From Bacteroides fragilis (GTDB taxonomy: Bacteria > Bacteroidota > Bacteroidia > Bacteroidales > Bacteroidaceae), in contig NZ_CP018937.1 in NCBI RefSeq assembly GCF_002849695.1, positions 434,001-498,000 of the forward strand: a DNA stretch of 64,000 bases, given 5' to 3'. The notes beneath the pieces are model-generated. The model saw only the letters and a list, made by a program, of their open reading frames with translations. It was not told the origin of the DNA and made no database searches. Positions within the stretch are counted from its first letter, which is position 1; each line of letters begins with the position of its first letter. Position numbers and translations under genes: made by a program. Of this stretch, positions 15,323 through 63,648 are shown piece after piece.

Positions 15323-15418
15323 TTCACCACAGATTACACAGATTAACACAGAATTAGTTTTCAAATCGTTGATTATCAACATGAATAATCTGTGTTAATC
15401 TGTGTAATCTGTGGTGAA
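15323..15418. repeat. Intergenic inverted repeat with 30-bp perfect arms
   Basis: The left arm 15323-15352 begins TTCACCACAGATTACACAGA and the right arm 15389-15418 is its exact reverse complement; the spacer is 36 bases. Within each arm ACAG recurs every 9-10 bases. Imperfect relatives lie at 26879-26970, 56169-56256 and 59138-59219, with a half copy at 746. It lies between dipeptidyl peptidase IV and lipA. Confidence 0.9.
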
Positions 15419-26878: not shown

Positions 26879-26970
26879 TCACCACAGAGTAACACGGAGT
26901 CTCACAGAAATTTTAAGTACCTATAATAAAAGATTAAAACTCTGTGAAGTTCCGTGTTACTCTGTGGTGA
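26879..26970. repeat. Intergenic inverted repeat, 30-bp arms with three mismatches
   Basis: Left arm 26879-26908 begins TCACCACAGAGTAACACGGA; right arm 26941-26970 ends GTTACTCTGTGGTGA. Same family as 15323-15418, with G replacing T at the recurrent position. It sits between the helicase 3' end and the AsmA-like promoter. Confidence 0.88.
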
Positions 26971-56292: not shown

Positions 56293-59112
56293 TTATTTAT
56301 TTTCCGCACTGACCATTGTCACTTCCACCTCGTTCTTTTGTTTGAACAGGTCGTCTGCGAATTTCCGGATATCATTTACCGTAATGCTGTTGACTATCTT
56401 TTCGTAGTCATTCACACGGTTAACGCCGGTATACAGGTATTCGTCGATACTTCCCAACCAGTAGCTATTCTCTTTCAGGTCCTCGGTATGCTTTTTCAGC
56501 ATGTACTCTTTCACCTTATTCAAGTTGGTTTCTGACGGACCGGTTTTCGCTATGTTGGTTATCTCGTCAAAGATGATTTTCATCAATTTCTCTTTTTTAT
56601 CGGGGGCTGTATCGAAGATAATCTGCAAAAATATTTTTTCTTTGGGATATTTTTGTAACCTTCCACCTACGTATACTCCATAGGTACCTCCCTCGTCTTC
56701 ACGTACTTTTTCTGTGTAAACCAGATCGAGTATCTGGCTTGTCATGCCGAGCAGAAGGTTGTTTCTCAGATCATATTTGCAGTCTCCGCTATAAAACACG
56801 AATACCGAAGCTTTGGGCGTTTCCTGTTTCTTGGTGAATTCGTTCTTGTAAACACCCTGACGCACTTCTATTTTGTTATCTTTGAAAGTCTCCTGACGAT
56901 TGATGGCAGGGAGTGCACCCAGGTATTCTGCGATGACCGGTTTCATCTTTTCTACATCTACATTGCCGACAAAGATGAATGTGAAGTCGCTTGCATCTTT
57001 AAAACGATCCTGATACATAGACAGAATCTTATTGTAATCCATCTGATCCACCATATCGGCTTTTATGCGTTTGGCTCTCGGATGATTCATATAAACACCG
57101 GCCTGAATGGAGTCGTTGAATGCCACATTCGGGTTCAGTTCCTGATTTTTTAACGCTGCTTTACTACGACTTTTATAAGATGCAAATGCATCGTTGTCTC
57201 TGCGCGGGGCGGTGAATGTGAGATAAGTGAGCTGCATCATCGTTTCAAAATCCTTGGGAGAGCAACTTCCTGAAACGTTTTCGGTCGTGAGTGAGATGTT
57301 GTAATTGACCGATGCTTTTTTTCCGGCAAGCACTTTCTCAAGATCTACCGCACTGAAGTTACCTAAGCCACCAGCGCCGACAGCATCCAGACCGCTTATA
57401 TTAATGATTTCCGAATCGGGGAATAAAGAACTGCCTCCCAGACTGACACCTTTCATACGGATTTCGTCTGCTTTGAAATCGGTCTTTTTTATAATTACCT
57501 TTACCCCGTTAGATAGAGTCAGAGTAGTTGTTCCAAAGATGTCATCTTTCGTTTCGGAAACAATTTTCCCCCCTTTCGGAGCTTCGGCCATCAAAGGTTC
57601 ATCTGATACCTTGTCTACATAAGCAGTCAGTTTCTCCGCTTTTGTATCTTTCAGCAGTTTGTTTATGGTCGCTTCGGAAGGCAGTTTCAGACCTTCTTTT
57701 TCAGGAGCGAAAAGAGCTACTACCTGATTATTGTCCGTAATAAGCCCTTTCATCAATTGGTTGATTGCTGCCACCGGAATATTCGGAGCTATCTGATTGA
57801 TAAAAGTATATTCGTTTTCAATACCCGGTATTGGTTCGTTATCAAGGAAATGACGGACATATTCGTTTACATATTTATTATTTTTCTGCTTATCCCGTTC
57901 GTTGTAGGCCGATTCCAATTGGCGTAGGTATTCCGCACGGGCACGGTTGTATTCCGTTTCGGTAAAGCCGAACTGACGGGCACGTTCTATTTCGCGCAAC
58001 AAGGTAGCGATGCCGTTATCAATACTGTCTTCTTTGCATACTACAACTCCGAGAAAGGCATCCTTGGTTTTGGCTACGAAAAAGTTGCCGTCTTGCGTTC
58101 CGGCATAGATATAGGGCGGATTGGCCGTTTGTGCCAATTCATTTAAACGTGCGTTCAGCATACTGCTGATCAGATCCTTGGCATACTGCTGTATCAGGTA
58201 GTCCACATTGCCTTTCTGATTGTCAGGAATTGCTTCGTGCTTATTGAAATGAAGAACTTGTACATGAGGTTGTTCCTTATCTTTCAGGATACAGATGATC
58301 GGTTCTTTATTATCGGCAACCGGATAATAGATGCGTTCGGCGGCATTCGGCTGTGCCGGAATATCGGTGAACATTGTTTTGATCTTGGCTTCTACGGCAT
58401 CTACGTCGATATCACCGACAATGACGATTCCCTGTAGGTCCGGACGGTACCACTTTTCATAGTAGTCTCTCAGTGTTTGTGGCTTGAAGTTCATCACTAC
58501 GTCCATGGTGCCAATGGGGAAACTGTTGGCATATTTATCGCCCGGATACATCATCGGTAGAAGTTTCTCTTGCATACGCATCATGGCACTCATACGGGTA
58601 CGCCATTCCTCATTGATGACACCCCGTTCTTTATCAATTTCCTTCGGATCGAGGGTCAGGTCATTGCTCCAGTCGTGGAGGATCAGTAAACAAGAATCTA
58701 CTGCTCCGGGGGTGTTGACCGGTACATTGGAGATGTTGTAAACCGTTTCGTCGATGGCAGTATATGCATTCAGATTCTCACCGAACTTTACTCCGATACG
58801 TTCCAGATACTGTTTCAGCGCATCACCCGGGAAGTGAGTGGTCCCATTGAAACACATATGTTCCAGAAAGTGTGCCAATCCACGTTGGTTTTCTTCTTCT
58901 TGAATAGAGCCCACTTTCTGGGCAATGTAGAAGTCGGCACGGTTGGCGGGCAGATTGTTCTTACGGATGTAGTAAGTCAGACCATTGTCTAACTTTCCGA
59001 TACGTACGTTCTTGTCGATAGGGATGGGCGGCATTTGCTGTGCAAAGGCCTGCTGGAAGTTGCAGCACAGGATGACTGCAACGAAAAGTAAACCACGGAA
59101 TAAATGTTTCAT
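56293..59112 (-). CDS. M16 family zinc peptidase (pitrilysin/insulinase type)
   Basis: A 939-residue exported peptidase made of two M16 halves. The signal peptide ends near FAQQ (25). The inverted zinc motif HxxEH is at His81, Glu84 and His85 (HFLEH) with the third ligand glutamate in RGVINEEW. The second half (from about 500) lacks HxxEH, as is normal, and keeps the R/Y pair region (SGSCSPKDFETMMQLTYL). It probably degrades peptides in the periplasm. Full length. It lies downstream of kdsA with a repeat between. Confidence 0.95.
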   Translation of the reverse strand: MKHLFRGLLFVAVILCCNFQQAFAQQMPPIPIDKNVRIGKLDNGLTYYIRKNNLPANRADFYIAQKVGSIQEEENQRGLAHFLEHMCFNGTTHFPGDALKQYLERIGVKFGENLNAYTAIDETVYNISNVPVNTPGAVDSCLLILHDWSNDLTLDPKEIDKERGVINEEWRTRMSAMMRMQEKLLPMMYPGDKYANSFPIGTMDVVMNFKPQTLRDYYEKWYRPDLQGIVIVGDIDVDAVEAKIKTMFTDIPAQPNAAERIYYPVADNKEPIICILKDKEQPHVQVLHFNKHEAIPDNQKGNVDYLIQQYAKDLISSMLNARLNELAQTANPPYIYAGTQDGNFFVAKTKDAFLGVVVCKEDSIDNGIATLLREIERARQFGFTETEYNRARAEYLRQLESAYNERDKQKNNKYVNEYVRHFLDNEPIPGIENEYTFINQIAPNIPVAAINQLMKGLITDNNQVVALFAPEKEGLKLPSEATINKLLKDTKAEKLTAYVDKVSDEPLMAEAPKGGKIVSETKDDIFGTTTLTLSNGVKVIIKKTDFKADEIRMKGVSLGGSSLFPDSEIINISGLDAVGAGGLGNFSAVDLEKVLAGKKASVNYNISLTTENVSGSCSPKDFETMMQLTYLTFTAPRRDNDAFASYKSRSKAALKNQELNPNVAFNDSIQAGVYMNHPRAKRIKADMVDQMDYNKILSMYQDRFKDASDFTFIFVGNVDVEKMKPVIAEYLGALPAINRQETFKDNKIEVRQGVYKNEFTKKQETPKASVFVFYSGDCKYDLRNNLLLGMTSQILDLVYTEKVREDEGGTYGVYVGGRLQKYPKEKIFLQIIFDTAPDKKEKLMKIIFDEITNIAKTGPSETNLNKVKEYMLKKHTEDLKENSYWLGSIDEYLYTGVNRVNDYEKIVNSITVNDIRKFADDLFKQKNEVEVTMVSAENK

Positions 59113-59137
59113 TGCTATACTGTTTTTGAATTCTATC

Positions 59138-59219
59138 TACCGCAGCATACACTGATCACACTCTCGTTTTTGATGTTTTTATATACAAGATTCTGTGCTT
59201 TCAGTGCGTTCTGTGGTGA
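59138..59219. repeat. Degenerate member of the CACCACAGA inverted-repeat family
   Basis: TACCGCAGCATACACTGAT on the left and GTGCGTTCTGTGGTGA on the right are recognisable but mismatched arms; the right end is closest to the family. Confidence 0.6.
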
Positions 59220-59267
59220 ATAATCTTGTTTCTGTTTTTTCTATCAGTCGCATTGCCGGGAAGTAAA

Positions 59268-60071
59268 TCACATAATCGCTTCTCTAATTTTCACCAGTTT
59301 AGTCAATAATCCTTCCAATAGGTCAAGCTTCAGCATATTGGCACCGTCACTTTTGGCTACTGTGGGATTTTCGTGCGTTTCAATGAAAAGTCCGTCGACA
59401 CCGACAGCGATACCGGCTTTGGCCACCGTCTCAATCAATTGCGGCATTCCTCCCGTTACTCCATTTGTCTGATTAGGTTGTTGCAATGAGTGGGTTACAT
59501 CCAGAATGACCGGATAACCAAAAGATTGCATTTCCGGTATACCCCTGTAATCAATCACCAAGTCCTGATAACCAAATGTTGTTCCACGTTCAGTCAGCAT
59601 CACGTTCTTGTTTCCGGCTTCTATCACTTTGTCGGCTGCAAATTGCATGGCGAGTGGGGAGAGAAACTGTCCTTTTTTGATATTAATCGTTTTTCCGGTT
59701 TTAGCTGCCGCCACCAGCAAGTCCGTCTGTCGGCACAAGAAGGCCGGGATTTGCAGAATATCTACATAACTGGCCGCCATGCCCGCTTCGTCGGCAGCGT
59801 GAATATCTGTTACGGTAGGTATTCCGAAGGTTCTGTGCACTTTTTCGAGAACCTTTAATGCCTTTTCATCACCAATTCCCATGAATGAATCCATGCGTGA
59901 GCGGTTAGCTTTGCGATATGAACCTTTGAATACATAAGGAATTCCCAGTTTATCGGTGATGTTTACTATTCTTTCGGCAATTCGCATGGCCATCTCTTCA
60001 CCTTCGATAACACATGGTCCGGCCAATAGGAAGAAGTTTCCCGTCTTATTGTTTTTCAGTTGTTCTATCAT
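59268..60071 (-). CDS. kdsA: 2-dehydro-3-deoxyphosphooctonate aldolase (KDO-8-P synthase)
   Basis: A 267-residue enzyme that condenses phosphoenolpyruvate with arabinose-5-phosphate for lipopolysaccharide. Motifs: LLAGPCVIEGEEMAMRI, FKGSYRKANRSRMDSFMGIG, TDIHAADEAGMAA, NVMLTERGTTFGYQDLVIDYR, VILDVTHSLQQPNQ. It lies 15 bases after the lipid kinase gene and is likely in the same transcript. Confidence 0.97.
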   Translation of the reverse strand: MIEQLKNNKTGNFFLLAGPCVIEGEEMAMRIAERIVNITDKLGIPYVFKGSYRKANRSRMDSFMGIGDEKALKVLEKVHRTFGIPTVTDIHAADEAGMAASYVDILQIPAFLCRQTDLLVAAAKTGKTINIKKGQFLSPLAMQFAADKVIEAGNKNVMLTERGTTFGYQDLVIDYRGIPEMQSFGYPVILDVTHSLQQPNQTNGVTGGMPQLIETVAKAGIAVGVDGLFIETHENPTVAKSDGANMLKLDLLEGLLTKLVKIREAIM

Positions 60072-60086
60072 AACATTTATATTTTA

Positions 60087-61013
60087 TCAATTGGGTATAA
60101 TCAATGTGGTTGCTTCCGGAATAATTCCTATTTCGATGGGAAAATGACGTGGCAGGAGACGTCCGTCAAGGTCGACTGCGGCATTTTGTGCACGCAATAC
60201 CTTTACTTTCCGGGTGCGATAAGACTTCACGACTTTATGATTCAGGATACGTCCCTGGATAAGCATCCAAAGTCCGGATATTATTTGCAGGAACTCAGGA
60301 CGGTAGATGACTGATACATCTAACCAGCCATTATAAGGAACAGCGCTTGGAGTTTGTCCGTATCCGGTAGCGCTTCCTACACAGACTGTCATGATTCGGC
60401 CGCGTATATGTTCGTCGTTAATCTTGAGATGTGAGCGATATAGCTTACGTTCGAATATCAACAGGAAAAGAGCTGCCAGGTAGGAGAGGAACTTTACGCC
60501 CCAGAAACGTTTGGTTTGATCGGTGATTTTTACGATACGTGCCCCTAACCCTATGTTAACGGCATTCAGGAAATAACGTCGCCGGTGCTTCTCGCCATCG
60601 TAAAAATTGCAGTAACCTACATCTATTTTCTTTCGGCGGTTGTTAATGATCCAGTCCACTGCCTGCTTATATTCCAGGTTCAGTTCCCAATATCTGGCAA
60701 AGTCGTTTCCAATTCCGTTAGGGATGATACCAATGGCTATTTCGTCTTTTTTTTCTGCATTCGAGCTCATAATGCCGTTGATGGCGTCATTCAGTGCACC
60801 GTCTCCCCCCACAACTACGATGGTTCGGTAACCATTGTTGGCCAAAATTCCGGCAAGTCGTTCTACTGAACCGAAACCTTCGGACTGCACATAGTCGTAT
60901 GACACTCCTTTAGAGTCCATGTACTCTTTAATTTCTTTCCATCGTTTCTGCACTTTTCGTGTGCCTGCTTTGGGATTGTAGATTACACCCCATTTCCCAG
61001 GTTCTACGCTCAT
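60087..61013 (-). CDS. Diacylglycerol/sphingoid-type lipid kinase family protein
   Basis: A 308-residue DagK/YegS-like kinase. The catalytic-domain motifs are IYNPKAGTRK, the glycine-rich VVVGGDGALNDAINGI, and GIIPNGIGNDFARYW; the C-terminal beta domain has VCVGSATGYGQTPSA and LDGRLLPRHFPIEIGIIPEA. No membrane helix. In Bacteroides, which make sphingolipids, a sphingoid base or ceramide substrate is possible; sequence alone cannot tell. Upstream of kdsA by 15 bases. Confidence 0.93.
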   Translation of the reverse strand: MSVEPGKWGVIYNPKAGTRKVQKRWKEIKEYMDSKGVSYDYVQSEGFGSVERLAGILANNGYRTIVVVGGDGALNDAINGIMSSNAEKKDEIAIGIIPNGIGNDFARYWELNLEYKQAVDWIINNRRKKIDVGYCNFYDGEKHRRRYFLNAVNIGLGARIVKITDQTKRFWGVKFLSYLAALFLLIFERKLYRSHLKINDEHIRGRIMTVCVGSATGYGQTPSAVPYNGWLDVSVIYRPEFLQIISGLWMLIQGRILNHKVVKSYRTRKVKVLRAQNAAVDLDGRLLPRHFPIEIGIIPEATTLIIPN

Positions 61014-61303
61014 GGATTTTACATTTATTATTTCGTACTTTTAATTCAATCTCTCTGTCAGCGAACCGGTTTCTTGCTTAAGCGGTAGATCATTCGTTTA
61101 TTAACAACGGACTTACCGTACTTTAACCGTCTGACATTGGTTATTTATTAGCTTTTCCCTCGTCCTTTAGCTCGTCCCGCATACGCGGGCTCATCGTCCC
61201 GCCTGCCTGGGCTCATTAGCCCGCGTACGCGGGCTAATGAGCCCAGGCAGGCGGGACGAGTTGATGAACAAAGCAAAGGCTGTTAAGAACTTCGCCAAAG
61301 TTA
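61014..61303. other. Intergenic region with GC-rich palindromic array
   Basis: About 290 bp between miaA and the lipid kinase. AT-rich flanks surround the GC-rich block at 61173-61260. No gene seen. Confidence 0.7.
61173..61260. repeat. Four 22-bp units forming a 66-bp perfect palindrome
   Basis: Units begin CGTCCCGC (61173), CGTCCCGC (61195), TAGCCCGC (61217), GAGCCCAG (61239); GGGCTCAT, GGGCTCAT, GGGCTAAT and GGGACGAG occur at 61187, 61209, 61231 and 61253, all 22 bp apart. Bases 61194-61226 and 61227-61259 are exact reverse complements with no spacer, centre GCGT/ACGC. Strongly GC-rich in an AT-rich gap. Confidence 0.92.
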
Positions 61304-62230
61304 CTAAAACTCTTTGAGTTTCTGCTTTACAAAGTTAATCTTTTCCTCCATCGGAAGTGAAGCATTTACCCAATGAATGGTAAAGCCCCTTCGCTCCATT
61401 CCCCTAAACCAGGTCATTTGCCGTTTGGCAAACTGATGAATGGCAGTTTCCAAGCCCGTGAACATTTCCTTATACGTCATTTTCCCAATAACATGCAGAG
61501 TCAGGTATTTGTATTCCAACCCATAATAAATCAGATCATCCGGATGGATTCCTTGTGCCAATAAGCGGCGTACCTCTTCTATCATGCCGTCATCCAGCCT
61601 TTGCTTCAGCCGGCGGGTGATTTTTTCCCGTCGTAACTCCCGGTTGATGTCCACTCCGATAATCAGGCTGTTCAGTTGTGGAAACTCTCTTTCTTCTATC
61701 GGCGTCTTTGCGTAATATTCTTCAATTTCGATGGCGCGGATTGCCCGTTTAACGGTATCTACATCTGTCGAGTTATGAAGTGTCTTATACTGGCTTAATA
61801 TGCCGGTCAGTTCTTCCAATGATTTTTCCGCCAGACGTGTGCGCAATTCTTGATTTTCGGGGACGGGAATCAGGCGATATCCTTTCAGTACCGATTCCAG
61901 ATACAGTCCCGTACCTCCACATAGAACGGGAAGGCGCCCTTTTTGTTTAATAGTCTCGTAAGCTGTCAGGAAATCACGTTGATACTCAAAAACATTGTAT
62001 TTATAACCCGGGTCGGCAATATCGATCAAGTGATAGGGAATTTGCTGCCCGTTGATGGTGTAATCTTCCAGATCTTTGCCTGTTCCGAGGTCCATTCCCC
62101 GGTAAATCTGGCGTGAATCGGCACTGATGATTTCAGTATCTAAGTCTGCAGCTAATGCGGCAGCAAAAGGGGTTTTACCTGAAGCGGTGGGGCCAAGTAT
62201 GGCAATCAGATCATAGTCCGGCATGGTCAT
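61304..62230 (-). CDS. miaA: tRNA dimethylallyltransferase
   Basis: A 308-residue enzyme that adds the dimethylallyl group to A37 of tRNAs reading UNN codons. P-loop ILGPTASGKT (11-20), the ISADSRQIYRGMDLGTGK block, CGGTGLYLESVLKGY, and the C-terminal FAKRQMTWFRG motif are intact. Start MTMP or the second methionine. A -7 box on the minus strand lies at 62250-62257. Confidence 0.97.
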   Translation of the reverse strand: MTMPDYDLIAILGPTASGKTPFAAALAADLDTEIISADSRQIYRGMDLGTGKDLEDYTINGQQIPYHLIDIADPGYKYNVFEYQRDFLTAYETIKQKGRLPVLCGGTGLYLESVLKGYRLIPVPENQELRTRLAEKSLEELTGILSQYKTLHNSTDVDTVKRAIRAIEIEEYYAKTPIEEREFPQLNSLIIGVDINRELRREKITRRLKQRLDDGMIEEVRRLLAQGIHPDDLIYYGLEYKYLTLHVIGKMTYKEMFTGLETAIHQFAKRQMTWFRGMERRGFTIHWVNASLPMEEKINFVKQKLKEF

Positions 62231-62249
62231 AACTTTATTAATGATTGGA

Positions 62250-62257
62250 CAAAGATA
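62250..62257 (-). promoter_or_regulatory. -7 element of miaA
   Basis: TATCTTTG on the minus strand, 20 bases before the miaA start; no standard -33 box was found. Confidence 0.5.
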
Positions 62258-62329
62258 TGAAAAAGGAAGTGAAAAGCAGATGTTAAACTCTTAAATGGTG
62301 TTATAAAACATGCTTTTTTTCTTGTATTA

Positions 62330-62360
62330 TTTGCAGATAACCAAAGAGTGAGTATCTTTG
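62330..62360 (+). promoter_or_regulatory. Consensus promoter of a candidate small RNA
   Basis: TTTG at 62330-62333, a 19-base spacer and TATCTTTG at 62353-62360: a perfect Bacteroides -33/-7 pair on the strand opposite to both flanking genes. Confidence 0.75.
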
Positions 62361-62366
62361 CAATGT

Positions 62367-62427
62367 GTTTTTCATAGTATTAGATTTAAGGTTAACAAAG
62401 GTTGGAGCAAGGCGTTGCTCCTTTTTT
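62367..62427 (+). ncRNA. Candidate small RNA of about 60 bases
   Basis: A perfect promoter 62330-62360 is followed at 62404-62427 by GGAGCAA-GGCG-TTGCTCC and six T, a compact intrinsic terminator. Nothing between can encode more than a few codons. The body is TTCATAGTATTAGATTTAAG then GTTAACAAAGGTTGG. It lies antisense to neither gene, between miaA and the ABC permease. Either a stable small RNA or a transcription stub. Confidence 0.6.
62404..62427 (+). terminator. Intrinsic terminator of the candidate small RNA
   Basis: GGAGCAA and TTGCTCC form a 7-bp stem closed by GGCG, followed by TTTTTT on the plus strand. No plus-strand protein gene precedes it. Confidence 0.85.
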
Positions 62428-62443
62428 TATGTCCTAATCTCTC

Positions 62444-63648
62444 TTATGCGTTGTGCATCCATATAGATAACATCTTCTTTTTCAAAACAATAATATTGAT
62501 GAATGATACCAGTAAGAACAGCAATATGCCGATAGTGAATGTGGGCCAAAGTGATCCGGAGGGTATCTGTGGGAAAAGTGAGTTTAGTGTTTCGAGATAA
62601 GATGCACGTGTCCACGAAACAATTCCTATGGATAATAACATCACTACAATATTAAGTCCTACTGTCAGGGTCTGATAGGGGAGTGCCACTTTCGAAGGGC
62701 TGTATCCTATCAGAAGCAGGCTTTCCAGCTTGGTGGTGTTTTTTTGCAGTAACAAGAAAATGCTGAGCATCAATATATAGAAAGAGAGCAAGCTGATGAA
62801 TAGTCCCACAGCCAGAACGATACCCACAATCAGTCTCAGGAAATAAGTCGTTTTACCGGCATCCAGTTTCCCGTCTTCCGTTTCATAACCTTTCTGCTGA
62901 AAATATTTTGCGATAGAGGCGTCAGCCGGGTTGTTTACTTCAACAATCAGTCGTGAAGGATCTGCCTGACGATCCGGTGCGAAGTTCTTGTTAGCCCAAT
63001 CCATGAAAGACTGTGGAACCAGAATGGTGTTCAACCGGTTGGAAAAGCCGACGATATTCCCCTTGTATTGCTCTACCCGTCCATTCCCCTTCATCAGGAT
63101 GTCCATCTGGATCAGACTCATCAGACCTTCCGAGAGTTTAGGCAGGTTTCGGCTTTGGGCAAAACCAAAGTTATATAGGTTCAGATAATTGCGTGGAATG
63201 ATGATGGGGAGGGTATGGGTATTTTCATCGAAGTACCATTTGTCGAGGTTGACGTCTACGAATTCGTCAGGGACGGCTTCGAAAAACATTTCCGTAGAAA
63301 GGTGTACTCCTGCTTCCTGCATTCCCAGACCGGCGGATACTTTAAATTGCGAAGGGGTGAAAGCGCCTACTGTTCGGGTGAATGACTGTTGTTTCAGTTC
63401 CTCGATTTCTTTGGGGAGAAGGTATTATTCTTACCTGCGAAAGTGCCTAATGTGCTGATTTTCTTGGTAGCAATAATATAATCTTTCTTCATGAAACTAT
63501 CCCCTTCGGTAAAGATGGGAAGTACATCTTTGTAGAATTGTGCGCTGAGCAACACAATGACCATCCCGAAAAGGTTGGCAAAAAAGAAACCGGTCAACTG
63601 ACCGATGCTGATATGCTGGCGGAGCAGCTTCCAGACTAAGTTGTTCAT
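62444..63648 (-). pseudogene. Frameshifted FtsX-like ABC permease
   Basis: Two adjacent frames together make one permease of about 401 residues. The first frame (63648 down) runs MNNLVWKLLRQHISIGQLTG, a membrane helix and a periplasmic start, then hits TGA after FSPKKSRN. Shifting by one base at the run GGGG at 63413-63416 (CCCC on the coding strand) continues FSPKEIEELKQQSFTRTVGAF and reads through the rest: a periplasmic domain and three membrane helices near the end (IVGIVLAVGLFISLL, VALPYQTLTVGLNIVVMLLS, TFTIGILLFLLVSFINIIVL), the FtsX/MacB-like layout. Its ATG overlaps the ATPase stop (ATGA). Mutation or sequencing error; the downstream frame is otherwise undamaged. Confidence 0.85.

Follow-up and report, generated by a model that had tools for sequence, protein, structure and literature searches.

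The window, the stretch of 64,000 nucleotides of the Bacteroides fragilis chromosome analysed here, contains an array of four 22-bp units in the spacer between miaA and a dagK-like lipid kinase gene, with kdsA next after the latter (Table 1). The product of the dagK-like gene does not reach the NCBIfam cut-offs for assignment to a named lipid kinase. Directly after the miaA stop lies TAACTTTG, in agreement with the -7 consensus of Bacteroides promoters, TAnnTTTG (PMC7366714, extract); since this promoter match precedes the array, the latter is probably part of the dagK 5' UTR. A dagK homologue adjoins miaA in 24 of the 26 relatives examined, at distances of 15 to 182 bp, and TAnnTTTG is present at the corresponding position in 15 of the 26. 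Inspection by eye revealed no array in the miaA-dagK spacers of those 24 relatives, and a score scan over the 80 miaA loci was likewise negative, at a threshold (29/36) that also misses the degenerate arrays of the sister genomes (score 25). Just upstream of the miaA start and divergent from this gene, a match to BTncRNA_FopS, a paralogous Bacteroides sRNA family, lies above the Rfam gathering score (window 62365-62431, + strand).

Table 1. Features of the miaA-dagK region, in window coordinates.
Feature	Coordinates	Strand	Remarks
dagK-like lipid kinase gene, downstream of array	60087..61013	-	PF00781, PF19279
Array of 22-bp units with 8-nt ends TTAGCTCG...CGAGTTGA	61167..61264	.	4 units
Unit outside the perfect palindrome	61172..61193	+	unit 4 in dagK sense
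66-bp perfect palindrome	61194..61259	.	centre 61226/61227, inside third + strand unit; two arms of 33 nt (61194-61226 and 61227-61259), 100% complementary, no spacer
Exact inverted copy of 61238-61259	61194..61215	+	unit 3 in dagK sense, where its core reads GGCAGG
Central self-palindromic unit	61216..61237	+	core CGTACG
Unit 1 in dagK sense	61238..61259	+	core CCTGCC
Likely dagK promoter TAACTTTG	61296..61303	-	fits Bacteroides -7 consensus TAnnTTTG, inferred
miaA, upstream gene	61304..62230	-	TIGR00174 over cut-off

An earlier note on this DNA had described a 66-bp spacer-less perfect palindrome built from 22-bp dyad units, and both observations hold, the four units filling positions 61172-61259. 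In the dagK sense, unit 2 alone is a perfect palindrome, the reverse complement of unit 3 equals unit 1 exactly over 22 bp, and unit 1 differs from the reverse complement of unit 4 at four positions. The array-end motif GGGACGA also occurs inside the window array, where it is carried by unit 3. Scanning 932,096 bases from 99 sources (the window, 80 miaA loci and 18 stretches of the sister genome G105) gave 36 bp as the next longest spacer-less palindrome, and among 44 arrays of the family described below the length is 66 bp in the window, 34 bp in L058 and at most 16 bp in the other 42. The 66-bp palindrome is far beyond chance expectation. It was also correctly said not to be a terminator: with no T run and 0 terminator-like sites in 60950-61400, an intrinsic terminator is ruled out. 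What that reading missed is the membership of the array in a dispersed family and its placement in the spacer of a gene.

The further claim that such a palindrome is normally unstable, and hence recent or protected, was overstated as regards stability. The palindrome is short, the rule of thumb placing inviability at around 150 bp, and a nuclease search that covered SbcD of SbcCD found this protein encoded in the window genome (TIGR00619, 180 bits), so a missing nuclease is not needed as an explanation. Special protection of the 66-bp palindrome need not be invoked and the argument from instability is weak. Work on chromosomal palindromes in Escherichia coli made use of a perfect palindrome of 460 bp (PMC4245961, extract), and the extract of this SbcCD paper holds no passage on length limits.

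A dispersed repeat family built of 22-bp hairpin units

The window array, standing alone, belongs to an interspersed family in which 22-bp hairpin units are arranged in tandem. A search of its own genome (G000) with the 88-nt array returned 18 matches at 15 places, its own place included, and a unit pattern returned 55 matches vs 0 for the reversed control, two places in the latter list (L059, L060) resembling chance matches. We catalogued 23 arrays in G000, located in spacers, of which the window copy is L041; 22 of these G000 arrays overlap no open reading frame (ORF) of at least 100 aa and one overlaps a mechanically called ORF of 105 aa. The unit has arms GCCCG and CGGGC around an asymmetric core of 6 bp, which reads GGTATG or, reverse-complemented, CATACC, and is completed by YNATNR; an array usually reads TTATC-YC-(22-bp unit)n-GR-GATAA, its ends showing variants. 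Arrays were chained at the 22-bp step, the end motifs falling in register in most of them, and a single unit in L196, judged spurious, was left out of the counts. The resulting 46 arrays (23 from G000, 20 from the sister genome G014 and 3 from G105) contain four units in 37 cases, three in 4, two in 3, five in one and a single unit in one; degenerate arrays, such as L185, L188, L192, L202, L231-L233 and L291, stand outside this set. GGTATG is the core of 42 units and CATACC of 35, together with variants, and core positions u6 and u11 are complementary in 10 of 114 units vs 47.4 expected, so the core is asymmetric and found in both orientations. Among the units of the 46 arrays, the core CCTGCC in dagK-sense orientation occurs once, in window unit 1, and GGCAGG four times, one of them in window unit 3.

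At almost all other places the array is embedded in a non-coding repeat of ~370 bp with a conserved ATCTTCCATCTTCCACC module, whole or split. The window array stands alone: a 410-nt query from one of these repeats matches the window locus over the array only, and in some copies weak similarity extends past the array. Two near-identical copies of the outer module (L289 and L290, at 3.785 and 3.942 Mb of G000) have no GC-rich 22-bp array behind them, and in one copy of the repeat (L047:1485-2423, L206) a gene for a HU-HIG DNA-binding protein (PF18291) lies between array and outer module.

The family has a restricted distribution in the genomes searched. The array consensus matches 2 of 61 genomes, its own and G014; G017 is among the misses, so diverged arrays escape this search. 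A 280-nt module query matches 7 of 119 genomes, three of them weakly (G001, G032, G086), and an exact 17-nt stretch of the module 4 of 95 (G000, G014, G105 and G017). The arrays of G017, compared partly by eye, keep the 22-bp step and a CATG-type junction and have a different core. A generic pattern matches 4 of 301 genomes of the bacterial family, a draw from which G014 and G105 were absent, and the matches in G359 and G386 are at single places with three mismatches and look like chance; its reversed control also matches G000 (23 and 23) because the generic pattern is nearly its own mirror image. A phage or plasmid origin was discarded, as plasmid and phage collections gave no match, and one exact two-junction pattern found none in viral contigs. 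Word searches of an open-access library on REPs, Bacteroides repeats and interspersed repeats did not bring up the array family. What was a lone curiosity becomes a repeat family, unreported in the literature searched and a more interesting object than the palindrome itself.

REP and BIME elements of enterobacteria are short, GC-rich intergenic dyads, present in many copies, paired or clustered, and able to form hairpins. The arrays resemble these elements and REPINs (PMC3116915, extract) in being short, intergenic, GC-rich and multicopy with hairpin-capable dyads, and the 23 G000 arrays are short multicopy intergenic palindromes, as are RAYT-associated REPs and REPINs. Unlike REPs and REPINs, they are built of tandem 22-bp units in arrays of 1 to 5 with an asymmetric core in both orientations and are mostly part of the ~370-bp repeat, and their genome has no RAYT match. 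Movement of a REP by such a transposase was rejected on the search for PF01797 (Y1), which matched 0 of 1 genome here and 5 of 14 control genomes. The constant GTAG tag of REPs was not found at the ends and junctions, which carry TTATCYCG-type and YNATNR motifs; GTAG is sporadic inside some cores. REPINs moreover show compensatory changes (PMC3116915, extract), whereas the 22-bp arrays have no convincing ones.

CGTC-REPs offer a second comparison. These are reported, in Bacteroidetes among five phyla, mainly as head-to-head dimers with stems of 8-9 bp that open with complementary A/T, loops of 4-5 nt and mostly CCA tails (PMC3733652, extract). Like them, the arrays have CGTC at the array end beside the palindrome, as TCGTCCCG in the window and several other copies, and no dedicated transposase is known (PMC3733652, extract). 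Other copies differ at the tag position (e.g. TCAGCCCG, CCGGCCCG), and assignment to the CGTC-REPs was rejected as a misfit, the 22-bp arrays having 5-bp GCCCG/CGGGC arms, a 6-bp core and tandem units.

Eight G000 copies (L007, L040, L042-L046 and L050) ride in a MITE of ~560 bp with ends CACGGCTCTTTCATTTAACAACC, for which target duplications of 9 bp were read by eye in two copies (L042, L044). This MITE has captured one copy of the array repeat and spread it through the genome. The window copy was rejected as a member (end score 14 in L041 vs at least 21/23 in the eight MITE copies); unlike the MITE-borne copies, it and the other native copies lack the ends of this MITE. Outside the MITE subfamily no duplicated target site was seen, and none of the non-MITE copies yielded a clean empty site: in other species the miaA spacer differs too much for an insertion point to be recognized, and the one G105 locus without an element (the L052 locus) differs throughout the spacer. 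A counterpart at the same place in G014 was found for 15 of the 23 G000 copies (16 with the partial match L210/L198), seven (five MITE-borne, L048 and L052) lack one in the set of 24 G014 loci fetched, and several G014 copies lack one in the set of G000 loci fetched. Most copies are thus common to the two genomes, and some were gained or lost.

Dispersed copies of this kind could also be hairpin ends or recognition sites of a REPIN-type mobile element, moved in trans by a putative transposase. The inverted end motifs TTATC...GATAA of most arrays, the existence of one solo array in the window beside ~370-bp repeats elsewhere and the copies lacking a match in either direction between the two genomes are consistent with such an element. 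We nevertheless consider it unlikely, given the missing Y1/RAYT match, the target duplications confined to the MITE subfamily and the 15 copies that share their place with G014.

Unit turnover and origin of the perfect palindrome

At miaA-dagK, genomes G014 and G105 (dagK-like protein 99% identical) have an array that is as long as that of the window, has diverged from it and forms no perfect palindrome. Their two arrays agree at 91 of 97 positions. The window and G014 are identical at 58 of 92 aligned positions of the array, at 127 of 168 of the leader and at 623 of 708 of dagK. Because both sisters have an array at this locus, it is older than the split of the window and sister haplotypes; the perfect state is seen in the window only, and the suggestion of the earlier note that it is recent is probably right, because the arrays of equal length at the same place are imperfect. 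These loci also bear on the possibility that the inverted half was created by misassembly. Palindromes can mislead assembly and the exact perfect state is known from the assembled sequence, but at this locus two other genomes also have an array of that length and 66 bp is less than common read lengths, which leaves an artefact extremely improbable. The array as such is unlikely to be one, because three genomes have an array there.

Elsewhere in G000 and G014 the number of units differs at 5 of 14 orthologous loci, by whole units, in two cases (L045/L193 and L058/L201) between flanks that are 99-100% identical and in the other three in less similar flanks. At L047/L206 the number is kept and the array is 71% identical inside surroundings that are 94-99% identical. 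The sisters provide natural before/after pairs of 22-bp units gained, lost and replaced. Unit pairs were counted within 24 of the 46 arrays, after removal of 15 orthologues and 7 MITE copies. Exact inverted pairs (16-mers) number 4 vs 1.24 expected (P=0.033) and exact direct pairs 1 vs 1.41 expected. This inverted-pair excess is marginal and favours hairpin-driven copying without proving it; its loss when one mismatch is allowed (8 observed vs 9.0 expected) speaks against template switching.

We regard it as probable that a REP/BIME-like hairpin array had one unit overwritten by an inverted copy through template switching, a process of quasipalindrome correction. During replication the array would fold back as a quasipalindrome, the nascent strand would switch template, and one unit would be overwritten by the inverted copy of another; in the simplest direction unit 1 would have overwritten unit 3, thereby making an imperfect inverted repeat perfect. 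This is in agreement with work in which quasipalindromes become perfect, or more nearly so, by template switching, although the reporters used there correct a 4-bp difference whereas the event in the window would overwrite a whole 22-bp unit (PMC7202029, extract). Template switching would also flip cores and, with slippage, change the number of units. The window is the clearest case of an inverted copy, units 1 and 3 sharing the family-rare core CCTGCC/GGCAGG and unit 3 bearing the array-end motif in an internal position. No bacterial case of small inversions of hairpin loops was among the matches listed. With the before/after pairs from the sisters, the rewriting of DNA through hairpins becomes open to study in Bacteroides.

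Alternatively, the array could have been imported already perfect at miaA-dagK, or the sister copies may simply have decayed. In support of import or decay, the miaA-dagK haplotype differs by 12-15% from G014 in its genes, while at 10 of the 14 other loci compared with G014 both flanks are at least 93% identical. The same genes differ by 12-15% from both sisters (window 59000-63500 vs L185 and L240), and a replacement of the haplotype by recombination is likely for this region.

As RNA, the 66 nt fold at -73.4 kcal/mol (z -14.7) with 31 pairs and a 4-nt loop, and as DNA the 104-nt array region folds at -53 kcal/mol (z about -13). The palindrome would thus be a double-stranded stem of 31 bp in the lipid-kinase mRNA, where under template switching it might have at most a cis effect, through RNase III-type processing or insulation of the 5' end, this being the weakest step of the proposed mechanism. 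A stronger version holds that a very stable hairpin in the dagK 5' UTR regulates or processes the mRNA and is kept by selection. The fold itself, the position of the array behind the putative promoter and the good folding of another array (L053, z -7.7) agree with this version, but the sister arrays fold to just -39.6 and -37.4 kcal/mol and the frames around other copies may be convergent, divergent or co-directional (mechanical ORFs). Pairing tests used 31 of the 46 arrays, near-identical ones being removed, and 23 four-unit arrays for unit-to-unit comparisons; for compensatory change, 1 of 8 unit-register pairs reached P=0.04, and neither the junction register nor the unit-to-unit comparisons gave any such pair. 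A conserved RNA stem was rejected for want of convincing compensatory change in any of these registers, and selection for an RNA-level element seems distinctly improbable. Rfam 15 matches at the array were below gathering score only (microRNA precursors and Termite-flg).

Chromosomal distribution and neighbouring repeats

Sampling twenty 20-kb stretches of G000, we found two sign changes of the GC skew, one near 4.49 Mb and the other at 1.84 to 2.08 Mb, the stretch at 0.52 Mb being an exception. By the usual convention the 4.49-Mb switch, with G>C and T>A downstream, would be the origin, a tentative assignment in view of a DnaA-type Walker motif near 3.644 Mb. Twelve of the 15 native (non-MITE) copies lie within 0.56 Mb of the 4.49-Mb switch (P=1.2e-5, tested as 'within a quarter of the half-chromosome', the pattern having been noticed post hoc). 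The figure becomes 12 of 16 when the degenerate L291 is included (P=3.8e-5) and 13 of 18 when the two array-less repeats are added (P=3.4e-5), and the eight MITE-borne copies showed no clustering (KS P=0.80). In G105, whole-genome searches gave 12 copies, any MITE-borne ones included, and 7 of these are no farther from the contig start than a quarter of the half-chromosome; the KS value for this genome is biased, since extra copies were sought where G000 has them. Better survival of older insertions in stable regions would be a plain explanation of the clustering.

Such a distribution raises the possibility that the units are DNA-binding sites, in which a dimeric protein reads the GCCCG/CGGGC arms and the asymmetric core, with arrays of sites about two helical turns apart serving chromosome organisation or regulation and the symmetry of the window copy being incidental. 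The conservation of sequence rather than of pairing, the constant 22-bp step and the position of native, as opposed to MITE-borne, copies near the skew switch all point in this direction. On the other side, few of the Bacteroides genomes sampled have the array, it is strongly changed relative to G014 at 2 of 15 loci (L047/L206 and miaA-dagK), and the clustering is post hoc and open to the survival explanation, so that we hold both parts of this reading, taken jointly, to be rather doubtful. More speculative still, and in our opinion very improbable, is that the arrays are lineage-specific chromosome address sites around one replication switch, read by a putative protein, with evenly spaced, direction-bearing dyads whose units are rewritten by template switching, once into a perfect palindrome. 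The likeness of such putative chromosome-organising arrays to parS and matS would be one of role, the analysis having covered their clustering near the skew switch. If this clustering holds, it would offer a test for chromosome-organising sites in Bacteroides.

Two other repeats were encountered around the arrays. An element of ~520 bp with ends GGTTCTTCTTCAAATTTGGTGGTAA lies inside, or replaces much of, the conserved module of G105 array repeats, and was recognized by sequence in L273, L276 and L278 (G105), by BLAST in L231, L283, L293 and L295, and in L291 of G000; it seems to be drawn to array repeats. Another dispersed inverted repeat family, TTCACCACAGATTACACAGA..., occurs in the window at 15323-15418, 26879-26970 and 746-787, and letters similar to it were seen by eye inside one MITE copy (L046) and next to one in G105 (L276).
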